This document shows, piece after piece, positions 4,095-20,691 of a stretch of 39,192 bases of DNA. Source of the DNA: a virus; IMG/VR virus record IMGVR_UViG_3300040802_000056, positions 1 to 39,192 of that record; one strand, 5' to 3'. The translations under genes were made by a program, and so were the position numbers. The number at the start of each line of letters is the position of its first letter. Positions within the stretch are counted from its first letter, which is position 1. The notes beneath the pieces were generated by a model. That model made no database searches. It was not told the DNA's origin and saw only the letters and a program-made list of their open reading frames with translations.

Positions 4095-7085
4095 ATGGCA
4101 ATACGTAGAGACAACGTCCAGCTCGTACTGGAAATAGAAGCGCAAGATGGAGTTCGAGCTTATCAAAAGCTGCTCGATGAGTCGAAAAAGGTGACCAACC
4201 AAATGCGGAACCTGAAACGAGCTGGCAAGGAAAACAGCGAAGAGTTTAAGCAGCTCCAAAAAAGAGCCAGTGAGCTTAATCAAGAAATGAATGAGCTGGG
4301 CGGTGCCGGTGCCAACATGGCGCAGCTGATCACCCGGTCCAAGCAGTTAAACCAAGAGCTAAAAAGCTTAGTCCCTGGCACCAAGCGTTTCATTGAGGTA
4401 ACCGAAGAACTCAAGCAAGTCAACAGCAGGCTCAAGGATATTAGGGAACAAACCCGAGGTGTAAGCAGTGAGCTGGAGGAAATGCGGATTGCAGGGATTA
4501 AGGTGCCGCCTGCTTTTGTGAAGATCGCAAACGGCATAGAGACGGCATTCAAAGCATTCTTTGCCCTTCAGATTGTTCAGTTCTTTATCGAATGGGGCAA
4601 CCAGGTCAGTGCGCTCACTCGAGAATACCAAAAGCTTCAAGGCCAGATCGAGCAAACCACCGGCGCATCTGGCCAGCAGTTAGACGACTACACTGTCCAG
4701 CTCTCTGCAATTAGCCGCACATTCAAGGTAGAAAATCAGGAAATCATCAATGCAGCCACAGCCCTCACCAAGCAGCTTACCGGCGATTTTGGGGAATCCT
4801 TGCGGCTGATTGAACAGGGTTTTGTAGCAGGGGCGAACCGGGGCGGTGACTTCCTGGACCAGGTTAAAGAGTACCCCGCGTTTTTCAGAGAGGCAGAACT
4901 AACCGGGGAGCAGATGATTGCGACCATTACGCAGAGCGTACAGGAAGGTGTATTTTCTGATAAGGGCGCTGATCTCATCAAAGAATTTACACTTCGCGTC
5001 CGGGAGCTGACACCCGCCACCCAAGCTGCACTGGAAGGCATCGGCATCACCTCTGAGCAAATCCGTAAGAAGATTGAAGAAGAAGGGATTGGCGCGGCTT
5101 TTGAAATGGTGCAAACCCAACTGAGAAAGTTGGAGCAAGACTCCCCTGCTGTAGGTGCCGCATTGGCAGATATATTTGGCGGCCCGGGTGAGGATGCCGG
5201 TATCCAGTTCGTAGAGAACCTTAATCTGGCAGATGCCAGTATGGAAAAACTGACCGACACCAGCAATGAGTACGTGATGCAGCAACAGGCCCTACTGGAG
5301 GCAGAGCGCCAATTGTCTGAAGCTCAACTACAGCTCACCAAGGTGTCTGGACAATACGTAAACCAGTTGCAAATACTCGGTACGAAAGTGCTGGCTACCG
5401 TGATTTCCGGAGTTTCAAAGTTCCTCAACATCATCAAAGAAACCCCTGCTTTTCTTAAAGAAAACCGAGTGATCATTGGCGGGCTGGCGGCAGGGATTAT
5501 CTTGCTGAATAAGCAGCTGATCATCAGCTCTGCGCTCAGCTTGAAAGATGCTGCGGCAAAGAAAGCGGCTATCATTGCCACACAGGCTCAAACCATTGCC
5601 ACCAGGGGATTGAATGCTGTAATGCGGGCAAATCCTATTGGGGTAGTTATTACCGCATTATCGCTTTTAGCAGGTGCTATAAAAATAGCCTACGATCGTT
5701 CTCAAACATTCAGAGCTGTTATTGCCGGTACTTTCGGTGTCCTTCAGGAATTTGGGCAAATCATAAAAGAGAGCTTTTCAAACTTCCTGGGCATCTTCTC
5801 TGACCTGAGTGAAGGCAATATCAAAAGTGCTTTTGAGCGCTTCAAAAAAAGTGCTGCCAATACCAACCCCATTTCTTTCTTTAGGCAGCAAGGCGGCCGG
5901 CTCAAAGAAGCCTTTATCGAAGGCTACAATGACAAGCTCCAGGAGGAAATGATTGCTTCTACAGAAGAAGCCATTCCAGATGCAGAGGTTGAATCTCTAT
6001 CGGCTCAAGCCAAAAACCTGGGCAACGATCTTGGCAGGACTACCGGTGAAGAATTTAAGAAGAGCCTTCAGAAAGAAGCCCCAAAGGTTCAACGCGAAGA
6101 AGTCTCCGCAATGGACATAGGCGATGAAGACGTAGACAGCGAAATCGTAGACAACGCCTTTGCCTCTGAGCAAGAGTTACTCAAGAACCGATTCCTGCAG
6201 GCACTCATGACCGAGCAGGAATACTACGATCAGCGCTATGAGCTACAGCAGCAAGACTACGAGCGAAGGCTGGATTTCCTGCAGGAAAAGTTTGGGGAAG
6301 AAAGCGCCGCCTACATTCAGCTGGAGAATGAAAAGCTGGAGAAACAAAAAGACTATGAGATGCAGCGCCAGGAACTCACCCGGCGTACCGAAGACATCCG
6401 GGCACAGTTGATGCGGGAAGGAGTAAATGCTGTAAGCGATTTGGTAGGAACCACCATAGATTTACTCGGGCAGGAAGATGATGAGCGCAAAAAGAACAGC
6501 CTTGCGCTAAAAGCCTTCTCAGCTGGCAAAGTCCTTATCGACACCCAGGAAGCCATCATGGCGATCATTAAGAATGCAGAGGCTAACCCTCAAAACATCC
6601 TTTTCCCAGCTGCAGGTAAAATCATTTCGGGCATCAAGATTGCAGCCGTTAGTGCGAAATCATTAGCCGCATTGAATAAGATTAGAGGTACCAGCTTTTA
6701 TAGTGGCGGCCATACCGGCGACAAAGTCATCATGCCCGATGCCTACGGCGGCATCGTCGGAGCCGTCCACAAAAACGAATGGGTAGCGCCGGACTGGATG
6801 ACCGGGCACCCAGTGTACGGTCAGACTATCGGCTGGCTCGAAGCCATGCGGCAGCGCGGGTTCAAAGACGGAGGCTTCACTACCATCAACACTACCCCTA
6901 CCCTGCCGGTCAGCAATACCCTGGGCACCGCCCCCGACGAATCCCGGGAATTGATGATGATGTTCCTCAAGGGCAATGACCAGCTCATCAAAGCCATACA
7001 GCGCAAACGCTTTGAGGTGACTACCGGGCAAATTCGGGACGGCCTGCAGGAAGAAGATGAACTGGACCGCAACAGCGGGTTCTAA
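4095..7085 (+). CDS. phage tail tape measure protein
   Basis: 996 residues, the longest gene in the tail module. The tape measure sets tail length and leaves the tail tube during DNA injection. Residues 1-130 are heptad-rich coiled coil. Residues about 160-405 resemble the phage minor tail (tape measure core) domain with an LTPATQAALEGIGI-type repeat and ALADIFGGPGEDAG. Residues about 455-535 are strongly hydrophobic (GGLAAGIILLNK, ANPIGVVITALSLLAG), fitting membrane insertion. A second coiled coil lies at about 690-780. The C-terminus has glycine-rich SGGHTGDK and VHKNEWVAPDW, as in Bacteroidota tape measures. A bidirectional-looking terminator follows. Confidence 0.93.
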   Translation: MAIRRDNVQLVLEIEAQDGVRAYQKLLDESKKVTNQMRNLKRAGKENSEEFKQLQKRASELNQEMNELGGAGANMAQLITRSKQLNQELKSLVPGTKRFIEVTEELKQVNSRLKDIREQTRGVSSELEEMRIAGIKVPPAFVKIANGIETAFKAFFALQIVQFFIEWGNQVSALTREYQKLQGQIEQTTGASGQQLDDYTVQLSAISRTFKVENQEIINAATALTKQLTGDFGESLRLIEQGFVAGANRGGDFLDQVKEYPAFFREAELTGEQMIATITQSVQEGVFSDKGADLIKEFTLRVRELTPATQAALEGIGITSEQIRKKIEEEGIGAAFEMVQTQLRKLEQDSPAVGAALADIFGGPGEDAGIQFVENLNLADASMEKLTDTSNEYVMQQQALLEAERQLSEAQLQLTKVSGQYVNQLQILGTKVLATVISGVSKFLNIIKETPAFLKENRVIIGGLAAGIILLNKQLIISSALSLKDAAAKKAAIIATQAQTIATRGLNAVMRANPIGVVITALSLLAGAIKIAYDRSQTFRAVIAGTFGVLQEFGQIIKESFSNFLGIFSDLSEGNIKSAFERFKKSAANTNPISFFRQQGGRLKEAFIEGYNDKLQEEMIASTEEAIPDAEVESLSAQAKNLGNDLGRTTGEEFKKSLQKEAPKVQREEVSAMDIGDEDVDSEIVDNAFASEQELLKNRFLQALMTEQEYYDQRYELQQQDYERRLDFLQEKFGEESAAYIQLENEKLEKQKDYEMQRQELTRRTEDIRAQLMREGVNAVSDLVGTTIDLLGQEDDERKKNSLALKAFSAGKVLIDTQEAIMAIIKNAEANPQNILFPAAGKIISGIKIAAVSAKSLAALNKIRGTSFYSGGHTGDKVIMPDAYGGIVGAVHKNEWVAPDWMTGHPVYGQTIGWLEAMRQRGFKDGGFTTINTTPTLPVSNTLGTAPDESRELMMMFLKGNDQLIKAIQRKRFEVTTGQIRDGLQEEDELDRNSGF

Positions 7086-7184: not shown

Positions 7185-8387
7185 TTAAAGCAGGTTGTTC
7201 TTAAACCGGTCTTTGATCCGCTTATTCACCTTCTTTTTGTGACGGTACTTGAGCGTCATATCAGGCGTATGGTGGCCAGCCTGGTCCTGCACCGCCAGGA
7301 TATTCATATCGTCCATCTCCAGAGCATCCGTGATGCCAGTATCTTTCCAGCTGTACCAATGCAATCCAGAGATATCTACCAACAGACCCTCCTTTTGCAT
7401 GCGCAGCAGGATACGCCGGTGCCGTTTGCCCATCGTATTCTTATTGCAAGGCTTTGGCTGTCCAGGCTTGAAGCCCTCACCAAAGACATAGAACTTCATC
7501 GGGATCCGGTCAATAAACACAGGGTCGAAATAATGCAGGAAGTCAGCTGGGATAGTCACATATCTGGTTTTCTTAGTCTTCGCTTTACTGCTGGGTATCG
7601 TTACCATACCATTCTCCAGATCAATATCCTCCCTCATCAGCCGCATAATCTCTGAAGGACGCATGAAGCAGCAATATTCCAGCAGCAGCGCATAAAAAAG
7701 CAGCTGGCTTTCTTCCCGGATGCGAGTGATGACCAGGCGCGCCTCCCGGGGCGTGAAGTTGCGGCGCTGCTTTTCCGGCTTATCCATATACGGTATCTCC
7801 GTAAATGGGCTTGCATCGATATACTCCTTCCGGACCAGCTCATTGAAGATAGCCCGCATGTAACGCAGGTTATTATTGTAGGCATAGGCCCCCAGGTCAC
7901 GGTCTACCAGGCAACTATCCATATAGCCAGCCGCATGGCGGCGGGTGATGGCATTCACTTCCAGCCGGTCCCACCGGTGCTTGCGCAAATACAGTATGAA
8001 GAACTTAGCCGTTGAGCCGTAGGAGCGCATCGTGTCTTTGCGGGTAGTCTTCGACTTCAGCTGAAGGATGTAATCCACCGCCTCCACCACATTCGTTTTT
8101 CCCAAGTGGTCTTGTTGACTCTCCAGGAGCGCGCTGTTCGGCACCTTGCCCTCCTCAAACAAAGAGATAGGCCGACCCTGCTCCAGCCACCAGGTCAGTT
8201 TATCCACAATCTCCTGCCCTCTCTTTTCGCGAGTAGGCACATCCTTGATTCTGTTAAGATTGAAAGTGAAGCGGAAGCGCTCACGCAGCTTCGTGATGTC
8301 GTTGATGGCATACAAAACGATGTACCACCGATTGTTTCCCTTGACGAGCCGGGGCGGCTCCCATGTGGGCAAAAAGTTTTTTTTCAT
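7185..8387 (-). CDS. int: tyrosine recombinase/phage integrase
   Basis: A 400-residue site-specific recombinase expected to integrate the phage at attB. An N-terminal arm-binding-like region (1-90) is followed by a SAM-like core-binding domain (about 95-195) and a catalytic domain (about 205-395). Catalytic residues visible are Arg243 (FMRPSE), a Lys in SSKAKTKKTRYV, His372 or His373 (QAGHHTPDMT) and nucleophile Tyr381 (TLKYRH). The usual H-x-x-R box reads Y345-S-W-K348-D-T-G, so His and Arg are replaced by Tyr and Lys, a variant I associate with Bacteroidota recombinases. On the minus strand, a TACATTTG at 8454-8447 resembles a Bacteroidota -7 box. The candidate attP lies just upstream. Confidence 0.93.
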   Translation of the reverse strand: MKKNFLPTWEPPRLVKGNNRWYIVLYAINDITKLRERFRFTFNLNRIKDVPTREKRGQEIVDKLTWWLEQGRPISLFEEGKVPNSALLESQQDHLGKTNVVEAVDYILQLKSKTTRKDTMRSYGSTAKFFILYLRKHRWDRLEVNAITRRHAAGYMDSCLVDRDLGAYAYNNNLRYMRAIFNELVRKEYIDASPFTEIPYMDKPEKQRRNFTPREARLVITRIREESQLLFYALLLEYCCFMRPSEIMRLMREDIDLENGMVTIPSSKAKTKKTRYVTIPADFLHYFDPVFIDRIPMKFYVFGEGFKPGQPKPCNKNTMGKRHRRILLRMQKEGLLVDISGLHWYSWKDTGITDALEMDDMNILAVQDQAGHHTPDMTLKYRHKKKVNKRIKDRFKNNLL

Positions 8388-10278: not shown

Positions 10279-10351
10279 GCCAGGGTGGAGCAGTTGGTAG
10301 CTCGCTGGGCTCATAACCCAGAGGTCGGAGGTTCGAGTCCTCCCCCTGCCA
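10279..10351 (+). tRNA. tRNA-Met (CAT), initiator-like
   Basis: A full cloverleaf with D stem GAGC/GCTC, anticodon stem CTGGG/CCCAG around CTCATAA (anticodon CAT), variable loop AGGTC, and T arm GGAGG-TTCGAGT-CCTCC. Three stacked G-C pairs next to the anticodon loop and an A11-U24 pair are hallmarks of the initiator tRNA. The acceptor stem 5' GCCAGGG pairs with 3' CCCTGCC except for a C2-C71 mismatch; the 1-72 pair is G-C rather than the open initiator pair. CCA is not encoded (A then CTA). It may be a phage copy or decoy of initiator tRNA; a minor tRNA is less likely given these features. Confidence 0.85.
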
Positions 10352-15958: not shown

Positions 15959-15987
15959 TAACAATATAGAAATGCATAATATGAGAA

Positions 15988-16316
15988 GTGCCGGGAAAAT
16001 TTTTATGAGTTTCAAAAAGTTTGGGGTCAAAGTTGGTCAACTGGTCAACCGAGAGAGAAAAACAGTTAAAGAAACCTCTATAACTAATTGTTTATTAATT
16101 AATTATAGAGGCTTTGCCCTCCAAAAAGCTGGTCAACTTTCGGTCAACTTTCGGTCAACCTCGGTCAACTCGGTTGACCATGGTCAACCGAAAACAGGGG
16201 TTGGTCAACCAAGTAAAGTGTTGATTATCAAACATTTAACACTCTGGTTGACCCGGTTGACCAGGTTGACCAGAAAACACACACTTCAAAATTTTTCTGC
16301 CAAAATTTCCCGGCAC
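15988..16316 (+). other. candidate replication origin with iterons and inverted-repeat borders
   Basis: The 428 nt between primase and 16387 hold no credible gene. GGTCAAC occurs directly at 16035, 16043, 16131, 16142, 16153, 16163, 16182 and 16203, and inverted (GTTGACC) at 16173, 16247, 16256 and 16265, mostly 8-11 bp apart. An A+T-rich palindrome (CCTCTATAA at 16075, complement ending 16111) lies among them. The whole is bordered by GTGCCGGGAAAATTTT (15988) and AAAATTTCCCGGCAC (16302-16316), inverted relative to each other. Iterons plus an A+T-rich unwinding element next to primase are typical of a phage origin. Confidence 0.75.
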
Positions 16317-16386
16317 TATCCTGCAAGCACTTTGTTAGGTACTCGTATTAAATTAAACCACTATACCAAAATATAAAATTTGTGAC

Positions 16387-16665
16387 ATGGATAACAGGCA
16401 AATAAAAGCGGTAGCCGTATTCTGGCTCAACGAGATGAGAGAAAAAGGCAGGAAGCGACTCAGCGCTATCCGCCGCGAACATGCGAACGGACAGAGCGAT
16501 GCCGAAGCATTGCAACAAGCCGGTCAAAAACAGGAGGCTATAGAGAAGCTCGCTGCGATCATCAACGACTGGGAGTATAGCCTGGAGGAACTGCATGACT
16601 CCATCCGGAAGATTACTGCCGATCGCCGACAGGGCAAATTGTTTCAGCCTAAAAACCCGATGTGA
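16387..16665 (+). CDS. hypothetical helical protein
   Basis: 92 residues, highly charged and helical (IKAVAVFWLNEMREKGRKRL, then EAIEKLAAIINDWEYSLEEL). First gene after the candidate origin, and one base upstream of the HNH gene start. No family recognised. Perhaps a small DNA- or replication-associated protein, from position only. Confidence 0.6.
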   Translation: MDNRQIKAVAVFWLNEMREKGRKRLSAIRREHANGQSDAEALQQAGQKQEAIEKLAAIINDWEYSLEELHDSIRKITADRRQGKLFQPKNPM

Positions 16666-16666
16666 C

Positions 16667-17341
16667 ATGAGAGGAGAACCCTGGACAGAAAAAGAAGAGC
16701 AAATACTGCGTGAAAGCTACGAAGCCGGAGGGCGGCGTTTTGCGCACCGCATGCTTACAGCAGCTGGTTACGACCGTACTTACATTGCCGTAGCCAATCG
16801 GGCTAAGAAATTGAAAATAAGAGCCCAGCAAAGCGGTAAGTTCCACTCCGGTCAGACGCCTTGGAACAAAGGCAAGAAGATGACTCAGGAGATGCGTGAC
16901 CGGGTCAGCCATAGTTGGTTCCAGAAAGGGCAGAAATCCCACACAGCTAAGTACGATGGCTGCATAACCGTCCGAACGGATACCAGCACAAAACGAAAGT
17001 ATAAATGGATCCGCATTGCAAAGAGCAAATGGAAGCCTCTGCACCGGCATTTGTGGGAAGAGGCGAACGGAGCAATTCCAAGAGGTATGATGGTTGTCTT
17101 CAAAGATGGTGACAGCCTGAACTGCACGCTGGACAACCTGGAGATGATATCCAGAAAGGAGCACCGCAACCGAATCATAGGAGATAAAACGCCTGCCGAG
17201 CGGTTGACAGATGGCTACGTCCGGCACGTCCTCCGGAACTATTACGACATGCGGGATGAAGATATCACCGCGGAAATCATAGAAGTCTGGAGGGCTAAAA
17301 TTCAAATGGAACGCGAAATTAAAAAACTAGAAAACGAGTGA
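16667..17341 (+). CDS. HNH endonuclease with NUMOD-like module
   Basis: 224 residues from ATG 16667. An N-terminal DNA-binding part (PWTEKEEQILRESYEAGGRR, a Myb/SANT-like helix pattern) is followed by PWNKGKKMTQEMRDRVSHS (about 65-83), which matches the NUMOD3-type modules of homing endonucleases. The HNH core has His126/His128 (LHRHLWEEANG), Asn152/Asn157 (NCTLDNLEM) and His166 (KEHRNRI). HNH enzymes nick or cut DNA using one metal ion. It could be a free-standing homing nuclease or a phage recombination/packaging nuclease; no intron is seen nearby. The start codon is 1 nt after the previous stop. Confidence 0.88.
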   Translation: MRGEPWTEKEEQILRESYEAGGRRFAHRMLTAAGYDRTYIAVANRAKKLKIRAQQSGKFHSGQTPWNKGKKMTQEMRDRVSHSWFQKGQKSHTAKYDGCITVRTDTSTKRKYKWIRIAKSKWKPLHRHLWEEANGAIPRGMMVVFKDGDSLNCTLDNLEMISRKEHRNRIIGDKTPAERLTDGYVRHVLRNYYDMRDEDITAEIIEVWRAKIQMEREIKKLENE

Positions 17342-17763: not shown

Positions 17764-17870
17764 TGAAGCGGATTGTATTAGAGCTCATCAGCCTTTGCAT
17801 CGCAATTAGCCTTATCCCGCCCGCCATACTGGCTGCATTTTACTACTGGCTAGAAAACAAATTGAGATGA
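17763..17870 (+). CDS. small membrane protein before lysin
   Basis: 35 residues: MKRIVLELISLCIAISLIPP then AILAAFYYWLENKLR. One hydrophobic helix with positive residues at both ends. It overlaps both neighbours (TAATG upstream, ATGA with the lysin downstream), which supports translation. Its place directly before a lysin suggests a lysis role such as a holin-like or antiholin-like protein, in addition to the holin at 2357. That is inference from position. Confidence 0.6.
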   Translation: MKRIVLELISLCIAISLIPPAILAAFYYWLENKLR

Positions 17871-18577
17871 ACACAGTAACAATATCCTTTCTGGAGTGGC
17901 TATACAGCCTAATCGGCTACCAGGAGCCAAAGGCCGTCATCAAGCCACAGCCGCCAAAGGTACTGGAAGAAGACCTTATCTACGATGGCGGAACATTACC
18001 TGAGGTAGTCGTCACTGCCAAGCGGCTCTACATCATAGAATGGAGCGCCGCAGCAAGGAGAGCGTTAAGCCGTGACATCGAGACCGTGCAGCTTATGGCA
18101 TTGATGACCGCCTGGCATGAGCACGGTACTGGAGATGACCGGCACCTGGCCTACATCTTTGCTTCCATCTGGCATGAGTGCCACTTTGAGCCTAAGAATG
18201 AAAGACGGGCGAATCCGCTCCGGCAACCTTCGCTATATCGGCAGCAGGCCGAGTATTGGGACACCGGCTATTTTGGTCGTGGGCCCATTCAGCTGACCTG
18301 GGAAGACAACTATGCCCGGTTTGGCAAGTACCTGGGCCTGCCGCTAGTGGAGCACCCAGCGCTAGTCAACAAACCGGAAATCGGATATAAGATCGCTGTC
18401 ATTGGCATGGTACGTGGCTGGTTTACCGGGGCCCCGCTGCGCTGGTACATCAATGACGCCCGGGAGGACTACGTGAAAGCCCGCCGAACGGTCAATGGAG
18501 ACGAGCATATCAATGGCAAGAAAATCGCCCGCGATGCCGAGCGGATCCTCGAAGCTTTTCGGAGCATGAAATATTAA
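17867..18577 (+). CDS. GH19-type endolysin (chitinase/lysozyme-like)
   Basis: 236 residues. The GH19 lysozyme/chitinase signature is visible: YFGRGPIQLTWEDNYARFGKYLGL (about 135-158), and IWHECHFEP (about 101-109) with candidate catalytic Glu104. GH19 phage lysins cleave the glycan strand of peptidoglycan. The first 50 residues are extra, with a weakly hydrophobic start and a TLPEVVVTAKR linker common in Bacteroidota; there is no clear signal peptide, so release probably depends on a holin. Start overlaps the small membrane gene by ATGA. Confidence 0.88.
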   Translation: MNTVTISFLEWLYSLIGYQEPKAVIKPQPPKVLEEDLIYDGGTLPEVVVTAKRLYIIEWSAAARRALSRDIETVQLMALMTAWHEHGTGDDRHLAYIFASIWHECHFEPKNERRANPLRQPSLYRQQAEYWDTGYFGRGPIQLTWEDNYARFGKYLGLPLVEHPALVNKPEIGYKIAVIGMVRGWFTGAPLRWYINDAREDYVKARRTVNGDEHINGKKIARDAERILEAFRSMKY

Positions 18578-18580
18578 GCC

Positions 18581-18715
18581 ATGCTGGAAGTAGACCACAG
18601 CAACATCAAAGCCATCATTGAAAGCATCGTCAGTCATGCCTTAGTCAGGCACGGATTGAGCATTGATGAGTTGCGATATGGAAACTACCTTATTTTTCAG
18701 AGATTTAAATCATGA
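18581..18715 (+). CDS. small protein running into cassette junction, possibly truncated
   Basis: 44 residues. The first 30 codons (MLEVDHSNIKAIIESIVSHA, then LVRHGLSIDE) match the base composition of the lysin operon; the last 14 codons lie in the A+T-rich stretch that starts around 18670. It starts 3 nt after the lysin stop and overlaps the first cassette gene in another frame. It may be the 5' part of an original phage gene cut by insertion of the cassette array. Confidence 0.4.
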   Translation: MLEVDHSNIKAIIESIVSHALVRHGLSIDELRYGNYLIFQRFKS

Positions 18716-18944
18716 AGAAAATCTAGAAAATGGATTGACTTTTCATGCTGCTGGTATAATTGATTATATCTCTCCAAACAAAGGCAATGGGAGTGGAAAA
18801 GATTATTCTGTAATCTATATTCACCCATTTGATTTTTTTGTGGTTCGAGCATGGAGAAGTGAAAATGAGATTGAGATTTTCGAAGTTGATGATTATACAT
18901 ATCAATCTGCAAAAGAATCTCTTGATGATTTAGAATCGGAATAG
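18678..18944 (+). CDS. cassette gene 1, hypothetical
   Basis: 88 residues from ATG 18678 (METTLFFRDLNHEENLENGL). Acidic, with a beta-rich middle (SVIYIHPFDFFVVRAWRS, EIEIFEVDDYTYQS) and an acidic end. Clearly A+T-richer than the flanking phage genes. An in-frame ATG four codons upstream exists. The stop is 10 nt before the TCACACACC end of the first palindrome. No family recognised; a foreign, recently acquired gene by composition. Confidence 0.65.
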   Translation: METTLFFRDLNHEENLENGLTFHAAGIIDYISPNKGNGSGKDYSVIYIHPFDFFVVRAWRSENEIEIFEVDDYTYQSAKESLDDLESE

Positions 18945-18954
18945 GCGCACGCTG

Positions 18955-19087
18955 TCACACACCGGCTTAGCTATGCGCTGCCGCCAGATCAATCGCCTCT
19001 AATTAGTAGCAATATTATTAAGGGCCTGATAATATGATTATGCGCATGTTTTTGACTGGCGGTAGGCGTATAGCGAATGGTGTGTGA
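18955..19087 (+). repeat. imperfect palindrome 1 of the cassette array
   Basis: Outer arms TCACACACC (18955-18963) and GGTGTGTGA (19079-19087) pair perfectly. After a short unpaired spacer, inner arms GCTATGCGCTGCCGCCAG (18970-18987) and CTGGCGGTAGGCGTATAGC (19056-19074) pair with a few mismatches and one extra base. A 68-nt loop separates them. The two-box stem with unpaired spacer and an extrahelical base resembles the architecture of integron attC sites. Confidence 0.7.
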
Positions 19088-19230
19088 TGTGAACCCTAAA
19101 ATAGTGAGCTGCGACGATAGGAGCGCGGCTGACTATATACCCCCGAGCCTGTGGAGGCCGGGGGGAGAATGAACCTTATTTTTTCATGGTATAACCCTAC
19201 TCGGGAAGGCCGCTTTCAAATAAACCTAAA
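19088..19230 (+). promoter_or_regulatory. G+C-rich leader of cassette gene 2
   Basis: 143 nt without a gene between palindrome 1 and the next gene. It contains a strong hairpin at 19140-19165 (CCCCC with GGGGG, and GCC with GGC inside). No clear Bacteroidota promoter was found by eye. It is G+C-rich, unlike the genes on either side. Confidence 0.35.
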
Positions 19231-19656
19231 ATGAGTTATAAAAAAGTGTCAATTGAAAAAATCAAACCTTCTGAATCAGATTGGAAAAATGCAGTTGCAA
19301 AACTCTGGATGAAAGAGGAACAGGAATCAAAGGATGTCCCTCTTTGGTTTTCAGATAGCGTCGAGAAAGATGATATTATGTGTCAGTATCACCCAAGTTT
19401 TTTTGGGCGATTTGAAATTGATGATGTAGAGGGCATTGAGGACTTTGAAACTTCCGAATTGCGGCACGGTGACCCCTATTACCTCAATGACCAGGATGAT
19501 TTTTTTCATAGAAAAAACATCAGGTCAAACAATGCTTATCGTGCTGCTTTTTTCGAGGAACCAGCAAATCAAAACCTATGGGAGGATAGAGTCTATCTAG
19601 GGGCAGTTGAGTTGATGTTGAAAAAGATGCATGAAAAAATTGAATCGTATTCTTAG
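19231..19656 (+). CDS. cassette gene 2, hypothetical
   Basis: 141 residues starting MSYKKVSIEKIKPSESDWKN. Acidic (many Asp/Glu), rich in aromatic residues, with no transmembrane segment or signal peptide. No enzymatic motif is recognised; YHPSFFGRFEIDDVEGIEDF and GAVELMLKKMHEKI are the most structured parts. A+T-rich like the other cassette genes. The stop is 9 nt before the TCACACACC of palindrome 2. Confidence 0.7.
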   Translation: MSYKKVSIEKIKPSESDWKNAVAKLWMKEEQESKDVPLWFSDSVEKDDIMCQYHPSFFGRFEIDDVEGIEDFETSELRHGDPYYLNDQDDFFHRKNIRSNNAYRAAFFEEPANQNLWEDRVYLGAVELMLKKMHEKIESYS

Positions 19657-19665
19657 CGGCCCATA

Positions 19666-19738
19666 TCACACACCGCACAGTGCTACCCGGCGTGCCGACC
19701 GCAGGGAGGTATGATCGGGTAGCTGTAGTTGGGTGCTG
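19666..19738 (+). repeat. imperfect palindrome 2 of the cassette array
   Basis: TCACACACC (19666-19674) begins it. Inner arms GCTACCCG (19682-19689) and CGGGTAGC (19716-19723) pair perfectly around a 26-nt loop. On the right, GTTGGGT (19728-19734), inside TGTAGTTGGGTGCTG, fits the attC R' consensus GTTRRRY, though the outer arms pair only partly. The next 101 nt (19739-19839) hold no gene. Confidence 0.65.
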
Positions 19739-19839
19739 TTTTAACCCTTTCATGTTCAAGCCCGGAGGATGCGGAGGGCGGGTGACTAAATTATCGGGCA
19801 ATAAAAACTTTTCATCTATATCACATAAAGCTTTATCAA

Positions 19840-20316
19840 ATGAAAATTCGAATTGTAAAAGTAGAATGGGAGCCAGGCAGAGATGATTTTTTAGGTCGCA
19901 AGTGCTATTTTTCTTTGAAAGATTACTGCAATCTATTAGTAAAAGAAAAAATACTTCATCGACACGGAGAAGAGTACGGTCAAATGATGCAGTATTTCTA
20001 CCGAGATTACTACAAAGGCTGGGCTAATAATAGAGTTGATAATCTTTCTAGGATAGATTACATTCAATTATCCTTTTCTGATATCAGAATCTATTGCTCT
20101 CACATTAACAAAATCGTTGGTGTATTGCCTGATAAAATACTAAGCCATCCTTTTGTAAAGGAGTTAAATCGAAAGATAGATCATATGGTAGCTCATCCTA
20201 TCTGGGATAATTGGGATCATGATCTTATAAGCACAGATAAAGTATTTTTCTCTAAATATTTTGAGTTGCAAATTTTGCGGTCACTTGAAAAAATATCATT
20301 GCACTATGAGAATTAA
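19840..20316 (+). CDS. cassette gene 3a, hypothetical
   Basis: 158 residues (MKIRIVKVEWEPGRDDFLGR). Basic and aromatic-rich, with a helical middle (SLKDYCNLLVKEKILHRHGE) and a possible final helix. No known domain recognised. A+T-rich. Its last 11 nt overlap the start of the next gene, so these two genes look like a unit carried together, perhaps the kind of pair seen in toxin-antitoxin or effector-immunity modules; no specific family supports this. Confidence 0.65.
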   Translation: MKIRIVKVEWEPGRDDFLGRKCYFSLKDYCNLLVKEKILHRHGEEYGQMMQYFYRDYYKGWANNRVDNLSRIDYIQLSFSDIRIYCSHINKIVGVLPDKILSHPFVKELNRKIDHMVAHPIWDNWDHDLISTDKVFFSKYFELQILRSLEKISLHYEN

Positions 20317-20536
20317 ATATCAAAAAATTGGTAATAATACTTTCCCTGTTATCTGGCGAAAGAAAGGAAATAAAGAAACTGATCCTTGTCCATTCTGTGG
20401 TAATCTACATGTGCATGGTTTAAAATCATCTGGGCATCTTCATACTCATTGTGGTTATGGTGTCAATCGGATTTTTAAAGTAGATGGATTTAAGTTTGAA
20501 CAGGATAGAGGATATATACTTTTGGAGTATGAATAG
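20306..20536 (+). CDS. cassette gene 3b, small zinc-ribbon-like protein
   Basis: 76 residues from ATG 20306. The core reads CPFCGNLHVHGLKSSGHLHT then HCGYG: a C-x2-C knuckle followed by two His pairs and a second Cys, likely a zinc site. The CPFCG...H-x-HG...GH...HC pattern resembles small phage and actinobacterial proteins of unknown function. Overlaps gene 3a by 11 nt in another frame. Function not known; DNA or RNA binding would fit the fold. Confidence 0.7.
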   Translation: MRIKYQKIGNNTFPVIWRKKGNKETDPCPFCGNLHVHGLKSSGHLHTHCGYGVNRIFKVDGFKFEQDRGYILLEYE

Positions 20537-20617
20537 CAGCCAACTAAGGGCTACACGCAGGTGCGTTTGTAATCGTATGATGACGGCTAAGCACTTGCGT
20601 GTAGCCTATGGTGTGTG
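20537..20617 (+). repeat. imperfect palindrome 3 of the cassette array
   Basis: GGCTACACGCAGGTGC (20549-20564) pairs with GCACTTGCGTGTAGCC (20591-20606) over 16 bp with one G-U, around a 26-nt loop. TATGGTGTGTG (20607-20617) follows, and CAGCCAACTA (20537-20546) faces it. The right half (GCGTGTAGC then ATGGTGTGTG) closely matches the right half of palindrome 1 (GCGTATAGC then ATGGTGTGTG). Confidence 0.7.
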
Positions 20618-20656
20618 CCCTTCGCAGGATTAAGAATTTGGGGAATCATAAGTAAG

Positions 20657-20691
20657 ACCGGTAGTGACCAGTGCGCTGCCGGTTTTTTCTT
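20657..20691 (+). terminator. rho-independent terminator after cassette array
   Basis: ACCGGTAG (20657-20664) pairs with CTGCCGGT (20676-20683) with one G-U pair and an 11-nt loop, followed by TTTTTT from 20683. It probably terminated the lysin operon before the cassettes arrived. Confidence 0.8.

Follow-up and report, generated by a model that had tools for sequence, protein, structure and literature searches.

A tailed phage carries, behind its lysin gene, an array that we interpret as three integron-type cassettes with four genes, probably inserted into a small open reading frame. As read from the DNA, the sites of these cassettes are attC-like, a recombinase of their own is absent, and their movement would have depended on a recombinase supplied in trans. 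The DNA analysed is the whole of record IMGVR_UViG_3300040802_000056, 39,192 bases long and hereafter called the window. It encodes an integrase typical of phages, and its host is probably a member of the Bacteroidota.

Setting of the array in the phage genome

The array is preceded by a GH19-type lysin (17867-18577) and followed by an intrinsic terminator-like hairpin detected by a terminator scan (20654-20686, plus strand). A phage-type tyrosine integrase (7185-8387; Phage_integrase, 2.3e-10) is the only integrase recognised in the window. Neither an intI with the IntI-specific insertion nor an attI was found there, in line with the original prediction that no IntI is present.

Several other features of the genome were recorded. 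A tRNA gene (10279-10351) lies between the integrase and the primase, and an HNH endonuclease with a weak match to NUMOD3, of the homing type, lies upstream of the lysin (16595-17341). Right behind the primase gene, an A+T-rich stretch (16030-16275) holds about 12 GGTCAAC/GTTGACC repeats in both orientations. They seem better read as iterons of a replication origin than as the ORF called at 15972-16376.

The sole related phage found is a second record (L043), a 17-kb fragment that is 92-97% identical to the window over most of its length. From the way the two records overlap, the window seems to be a circular or circularly permuted genome that lacks about 1.1 kb where its ends would meet. The gap is spanned by L043 8056-9152 (about 1.1 kb), and an L043 ORF (7097-8569) runs into it. 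Within the tape-measure gene, the middle part (window 5274-6086; L043 14426-14968) is a sharp mosaic swap in which the two phages show no DNA similarity. No empty array site was found among these relatives, the fragment ending before the array, and searches with the major capsid protein returned matches in bacterial genomes at no more than 25-29% identity.

Composition, gene content and probable insertion point

The four array genes have a GC content of 0.32-0.38 and a GC3 of 0.19-0.37, against 0.46-0.57 and 0.53-0.73 for most phage genes; values for the tail genes at 29-33.5 kb fall in between (0.40-0.45). Measured gene by gene, composition agrees with the original prediction of four genes, arranged in three units, that are A+T-richer than the phage backbone. 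The left limit proposed at 18665 has to be moved, the change in composition sitting at about 18680.

All array features lie on the plus strand. Cassette 1 (18681-19079) carries a gene for a protein of 88 aa (18678-18944) that most likely starts at ATG 18678, and cassette 2 (19080-19728) a gene for a protein of 141 aa (19231-19656); neither product matches a known family. Cassette 3 (19729-20610) carries two overlapping genes (19840-20316, 158 aa; 20306-20536, 76 aa). All array genes point in the same direction, with one or two per cassette and a site right behind the stop codon, as in a cassette array.

The cargo is probably accessory. Searches of Pfam, PHROG and PADLOC gave weak matches only, and no relatives were found for the two larger proteins in phages, for P0002 in viral contigs or for P0003 in genomes. 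Single-sequence structure models were of no use (pLDDT 37 and 34). The 76-aa protein contains a zinc-ribbon-like pattern, CPFCG...HxH..CG, and weakly matches Lar-like restriction alleviation proteins (E 0.005).

Right behind the lysin lies the 5' part of a small ORF (MLEVDHSN...DELRYG, 18581-18680), broken at G18680, and the remainder of this ORF, down to its TAA, follows the array (20611-20633, plus strand). Joining ATG18581...CGA TAT G to GT GTG TGC CCT TCG CAG GAT TAA gives an open frame of 40 codons ending in VCPSQD*. Because the frame stays open across 18680/20611, a small gene after the lysin seems to have been split by the array. A search with the joined 40-codon protein gave no relative, and the evidence for insertion drawn from the joined ORF is therefore weak.

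Folded sites behind the genes

Each cassette ends in a palindrome built like an attC site. P1 (18951-19092, plus strand) consists of R'' TCACACACC (to 18963), the spacer GGCTTA, L'' GCTATGCGC (18970-18978), a long loop, L' GCGTATAGC (19066-19074) and a second spacer leading to G19079^GTGTGTG. In P2 (19662-19741, plus strand), R'' CATATCACACACC, the spacer GCACAGT, L'' GCTACCCG (19682-19689) and L' CGGGTAGC (19716-19723) precede G19728^TTGGGTG. P3 (20532-20623, plus strand) is made of R'' AATAGCAGCCAAC (20532-20544), the spacer TAAG, L'' GGCTACACGCAGGTGC (20549-20564), L' GCACTTGCGTGTAGCC (20591-20606), the spacer TAT and G20610^GTGTGTG.

The box TCACACACC is present three times in the window (mean 0.21 in shuffled sequences, 0 of 100 reaching three) and GGTGTGTG four times (mean 0.71, 1 of 100 reaching four). 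Their copies all fall at the positions first reported, 18955, 19079, 19666 and 20610, and nowhere else in the window. P1 and P3 do share a right half, as had been noticed, with 18 of the 21 nucleotides at the right end identical. The array overall lacks the GTTRRRY / RYYYAAC boxes (R' / R'') that define canonical integrons and CALINs: the start of cassette 3, GTTGGGT, fits GTTRRRY and the R'' of P3, AGCCAAC, fits at 6 of 7 positions, while the other boxes read GGTGTGT (5/7).

When folded as single-stranded DNA and compared with shuffled sequences, P1 (-29.7 kcal/mol, z -3.8) and P3 (z -3.2) behave as the folded palindromes that had been proposed, but P2 in place does not (z -0.35); it forms a good hairpin only when the beginning of cassette 2 supplies its right half. 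Folded sites with an outer box, unpaired spacers and an inner stem can be recognised in place at P1 and P3 and, for P2, in the circle form. The palindromes had also been described as lying within about 10 nt of the stop codons, which is true of P1 and P2, whereas the stop codon overlaps the arm of P3.

Hairpins directly 3' of stop codons are also what ordinary phage morons would show. Morons are often A+T-rich and closed by a terminator, and the array could consist of such genes, separately gained and each closed by a terminator or an mRNA-protecting hairpin, the GT box being due to chance or local duplication. We consider this unlikely: no T run follows P1, P2 or P3, the only terminator that the scan found on this strand is the hairpin at 20654, and P2 folds poorly in place.

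Complementarity at the joints

In integrons, the R'' arm of a cassette pairs with the start of that same cassette in the circle; in the array, the next cassette replaces the right half. We took the exchange point to be G^ in each right-hand box, an initial choice of TGG^ having been dropped in favour of G^, which agrees with the integron rule and improves the pairing. The plus-strand joints then read ...GATATG^GAAACTACC at the leader (18680), ...GCGAATG^GTGTGTGATGTG at P1 (19079), ...GCTGTAG^TTGGGTGCTGTT at P2 (19728) and ...GCCTATG^GTGTGTGCCC at P3 (20610).

The start of cassette 2, GTGTGTGATGTG, is complementary to its own R'', the left arm of P2, at 12 of 13 positions, a match that is unique in the window besides the arm. 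For cassette 3, the start TTGGGTGCTGTT is complementary to the left arm of P3 at 11 of 13 positions, as are 3 of 78,358 positions besides the arm. The same two arms match their present right halves at 8/13 each, below the match to their own starts. Pairing with the own start is a prediction that goes beyond simple hairpins, and it holds for these two cassettes. Rebuilt as the predicted circles, P2 goes from -14.0 to -23.4 kcal/mol (z from -0.29 to -3.95) and P3 from -21.1 to -29.0 kcal/mol (z from -3.95 to -7.66). Cassette 1 breaks the rule, its start matching its own R'' arm at only 4/13; its 5' end may have been lost. The pairing rule is blind to the side of the gene on which the hairpin lies, which is settled by the direction of the genes.

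That the arms pair with the beginning of the unit to which they belong, rather than with their own partner, argues further against morons. The two-box architecture of the original prediction, seen as an outer box, a spacer and an inner stem, gains support from this complementarity. In principle, the A...A' pairing might represent a terminal inverted repeat of each unit, and inverted repeats do bound units 2 and 3. The array would then be made of small transposon-like units with 12-13 bp terminal inverted repeats and incidental inner palindromes, mobilised by a transposase acting in trans. We regard this as very unlikely. The repeats vary from unit to unit, here as well as in the Chitinophagales arrays described below, and a transposase that reads the end sequence is not expected to tolerate such variation. 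Moreover, visual inspection revealed no target duplications, hairpins join the units, and unit 1 has no such repeat.

Searches for related palindromes

The view that the TCACACACC/GGTGTGTG palindromes form a widespread family was not supported: viral_contigs, genome_contigs and the sampled Bacteroidota genomes yielded no true match. In viral_contigs, the exact palindrome pattern gave 15 matches, none of which folds as a site, and a second viral pattern gave none; the 5 matches in genome_contigs included no true relative. In 398 Chitinophagales genomes, TAGCN{4,7}GGTGTGTGA was no more frequent than its reversed control, and none of 295 genomes from the class contained the inner arms of P3. A general scan for cassette chains had too much noise. 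One match, L018, was rejected as a relative as it carries a different GACAGGTGTGTG repeat; this Chitinophagaceae contig end (1-360) contains palindromic repeats of another kind, TCACACACCTGTC...GACAGGTGTGTG, with outer letters as in P1 and other arms.

That the exact palindromes have no relatives elsewhere would suit morons. The common GT box does not mark the family, as related arrays have a separate outer box for each cassette. Palindromes that have short flanking motifs and fold as single-stranded DNA also recall IS200/IS605 elements or RAYT/REP palindromes, which undergo single-strand transposition through a Y1 transposase. This origin is very unlikely: no Y1 transposase domain was detected among the 20 window proteins scanned, the 398 Chitinophagales genomes contain no REP-like repeated copies of the palindromes, and the logic of the joints lies outside what that mechanism predicts.

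Recombinases and arrays in Chitinophagales

When 299 Chitinophagales genomes were searched with an integron integrase profile, a single match exceeded the cut-off. Many strong matches fell below it, covering approximately positions 2-180 and 238-315 of the profile but not the stretch in the middle. Alignment shows that the IntI insertion LPxALERKYPNAG..W.W is missing from these sub-cut-off recombinases. Among NCBIfam models they best match TIGR02249 (below cut-off) and NF040815, and a tree built by a quick method places them with IntI1 and apart from E. coli XerC/D, with moderate support. The phage's own tyrosine integrase (7185-8387) might itself have built the array by using the palindromes as secondary attachment sites, as no other site-specific recombinase was recognised in the window. 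This is highly improbable, since it has no NCBIfam match, whereas the array-linked recombinases match integron/Xer models, and it sits on a very long branch in the tree.

Gene arrays with repeats between the genes surround several of the Chitinophagales recombinases. Insertion-less recombinases adjoin single-gene/attC-like arrays at L064-L083 (e.g., L077 8872-10026, L080 2632-3825 and L076 8437-10185), and the closely read loci have their array 3' of the recombinase gene. We counted 129 AAC-hairpin-GTT sites in 20 recombinase loci and 50 in 20 control loci from the same genomes; sites with an own-start match of at least 11/12 numbered 17 and 2, respectively. ACC/GGT cores were not enriched. 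The outer box is self-complementary inside each cassette and differs between cassettes. On the minus strand of L077, GTTGGTTGCTGTTT...AAATAGCAACCAAC is nearly identical to the outer box of window cassette 3, GTTGGGTGCTGTTT...AATAGCAGCCAAC, and an inner arm and spacer of L067, CTTGCGCAAAGCCTATTG, are close to CTTGCGTGTAGCCTATG of P3.

On inspection, many of the recombinase genes lie at contig tips, examples being G041:C15:419, G105:C57:225, G157:C216:353 and G071:C6:351913 of 352972; such a position is expected if nearby repeat arrays break the assembly. A true IntI, 53% identical to IntI1 and with the insertion, is encoded in a Chitinophagales genome (L044; G020:C40:3592-4530), and the 20 kb read around this gene showed no repeat array. 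Among the open-licence papers searched, none was found that describes recombinases without the insertion next to arrays of this kind.

Discussion

We favor the reading of the array as integron-type cassettes. The cassettes may once have been separate circles, each with a complete folded site. A tyrosine recombinase acting in trans, most likely the IntI-related enzyme of a Chitinophagales-type host, would have exchanged one strand at the G^ of the folded site. Entry into the phage would have taken place at ATATG^GTGTGTG, subsequent cassettes being added at the left end. The earlier proposal of cassettes moved through folded single-stranded sites finds support in the logic of the joints and in Chitinophagales arrays of the same plan; a widespread palindrome family is not supported. 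Against the cassette reading stand the mismatch of cassette 1, the restriction of GTTRRRY to cassette 3, the lack of ACC/GGT enrichment in the Chitinophagales arrays and the failure of the searches to find relatives of the palindromes or the cargo, or a related phage with an empty site. Because only cassette 3 has the GTTRRRY box, we treat the array as a variant and withhold the label of canonical integron or CALIN; despite the box mismatch, it would work like a CALIN.

The phage looks like a carrier of a Chitinophagales cassette pool, because it combines integron-like joints with a plan shared by arrays beside IntI-type recombinases. Whether Chitinophagales have a distinct integron-like system, with recombinases that lack I2 and long cassette-specific outer boxes, and the phage carries its cassettes between hosts, is a tentative proposal that we hold to be plausible but short of probable. 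If true, integron-type cassette exchange in Bacteroidota would be commoner than present detectors report and would reach phages; standard models depend on a box that is largely absent from these sites. With IntegronFinder 2.0, a complete integron was reported solely from Salinibacter among Bacteroidetes, where formerly only In0 elements were known (PMC9024848). Array-adjoining recombinases without I2 would also test the view that integron integrases owe their single-strand recombination to this insertion (PMC7790495). Since I2 is held to be the source of this ability, the Chitinophagales loci merit a separate look.

Clusters of attC sites without an integrase have been described earlier in phages and are experimentally active: 5 of the 6 phage sites tested were used by IntI1, and one of the examples comes from a phage of Bacteroidota, Polaribacter P12002L (PMC9892861). 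Like the window, these clusters combine cassette-like genes with attC-type sites and have no IntI. Their sites have the standard G|TTRRRY box, whereas two of the three window cassettes have GGTGTGTG, and the outer boxes of the window are 12-13 bp long and cassette-specific. With chromosomal integrons, the window shares an R''-spacer-L''...L'-spacer-R' site behind each gene, the G^ and a single gene direction, as well as, in cassettes 2 and 3, a start complementary to the cassette's own R''. Unlike them, it has R boxes off the consensus save in cassette 3, and no intI or attI alongside. The Chitinophagales recombinases also differ from those of chromosomal integrons in lacking the IntI insertion. 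The Chitinophagales arrays (L065-L067, L070, L076, L077 and L080) resemble window cassettes 2 and 3 in their long, cassette-specific, self-complementary outer boxes. Their core is AAC/GTT, which the window has only at the right of P2 and the left of P3, with GGT at P1 and the right of P3, and they are bacterial loci with an adjoining recombinase, whereas the array of the window has none.
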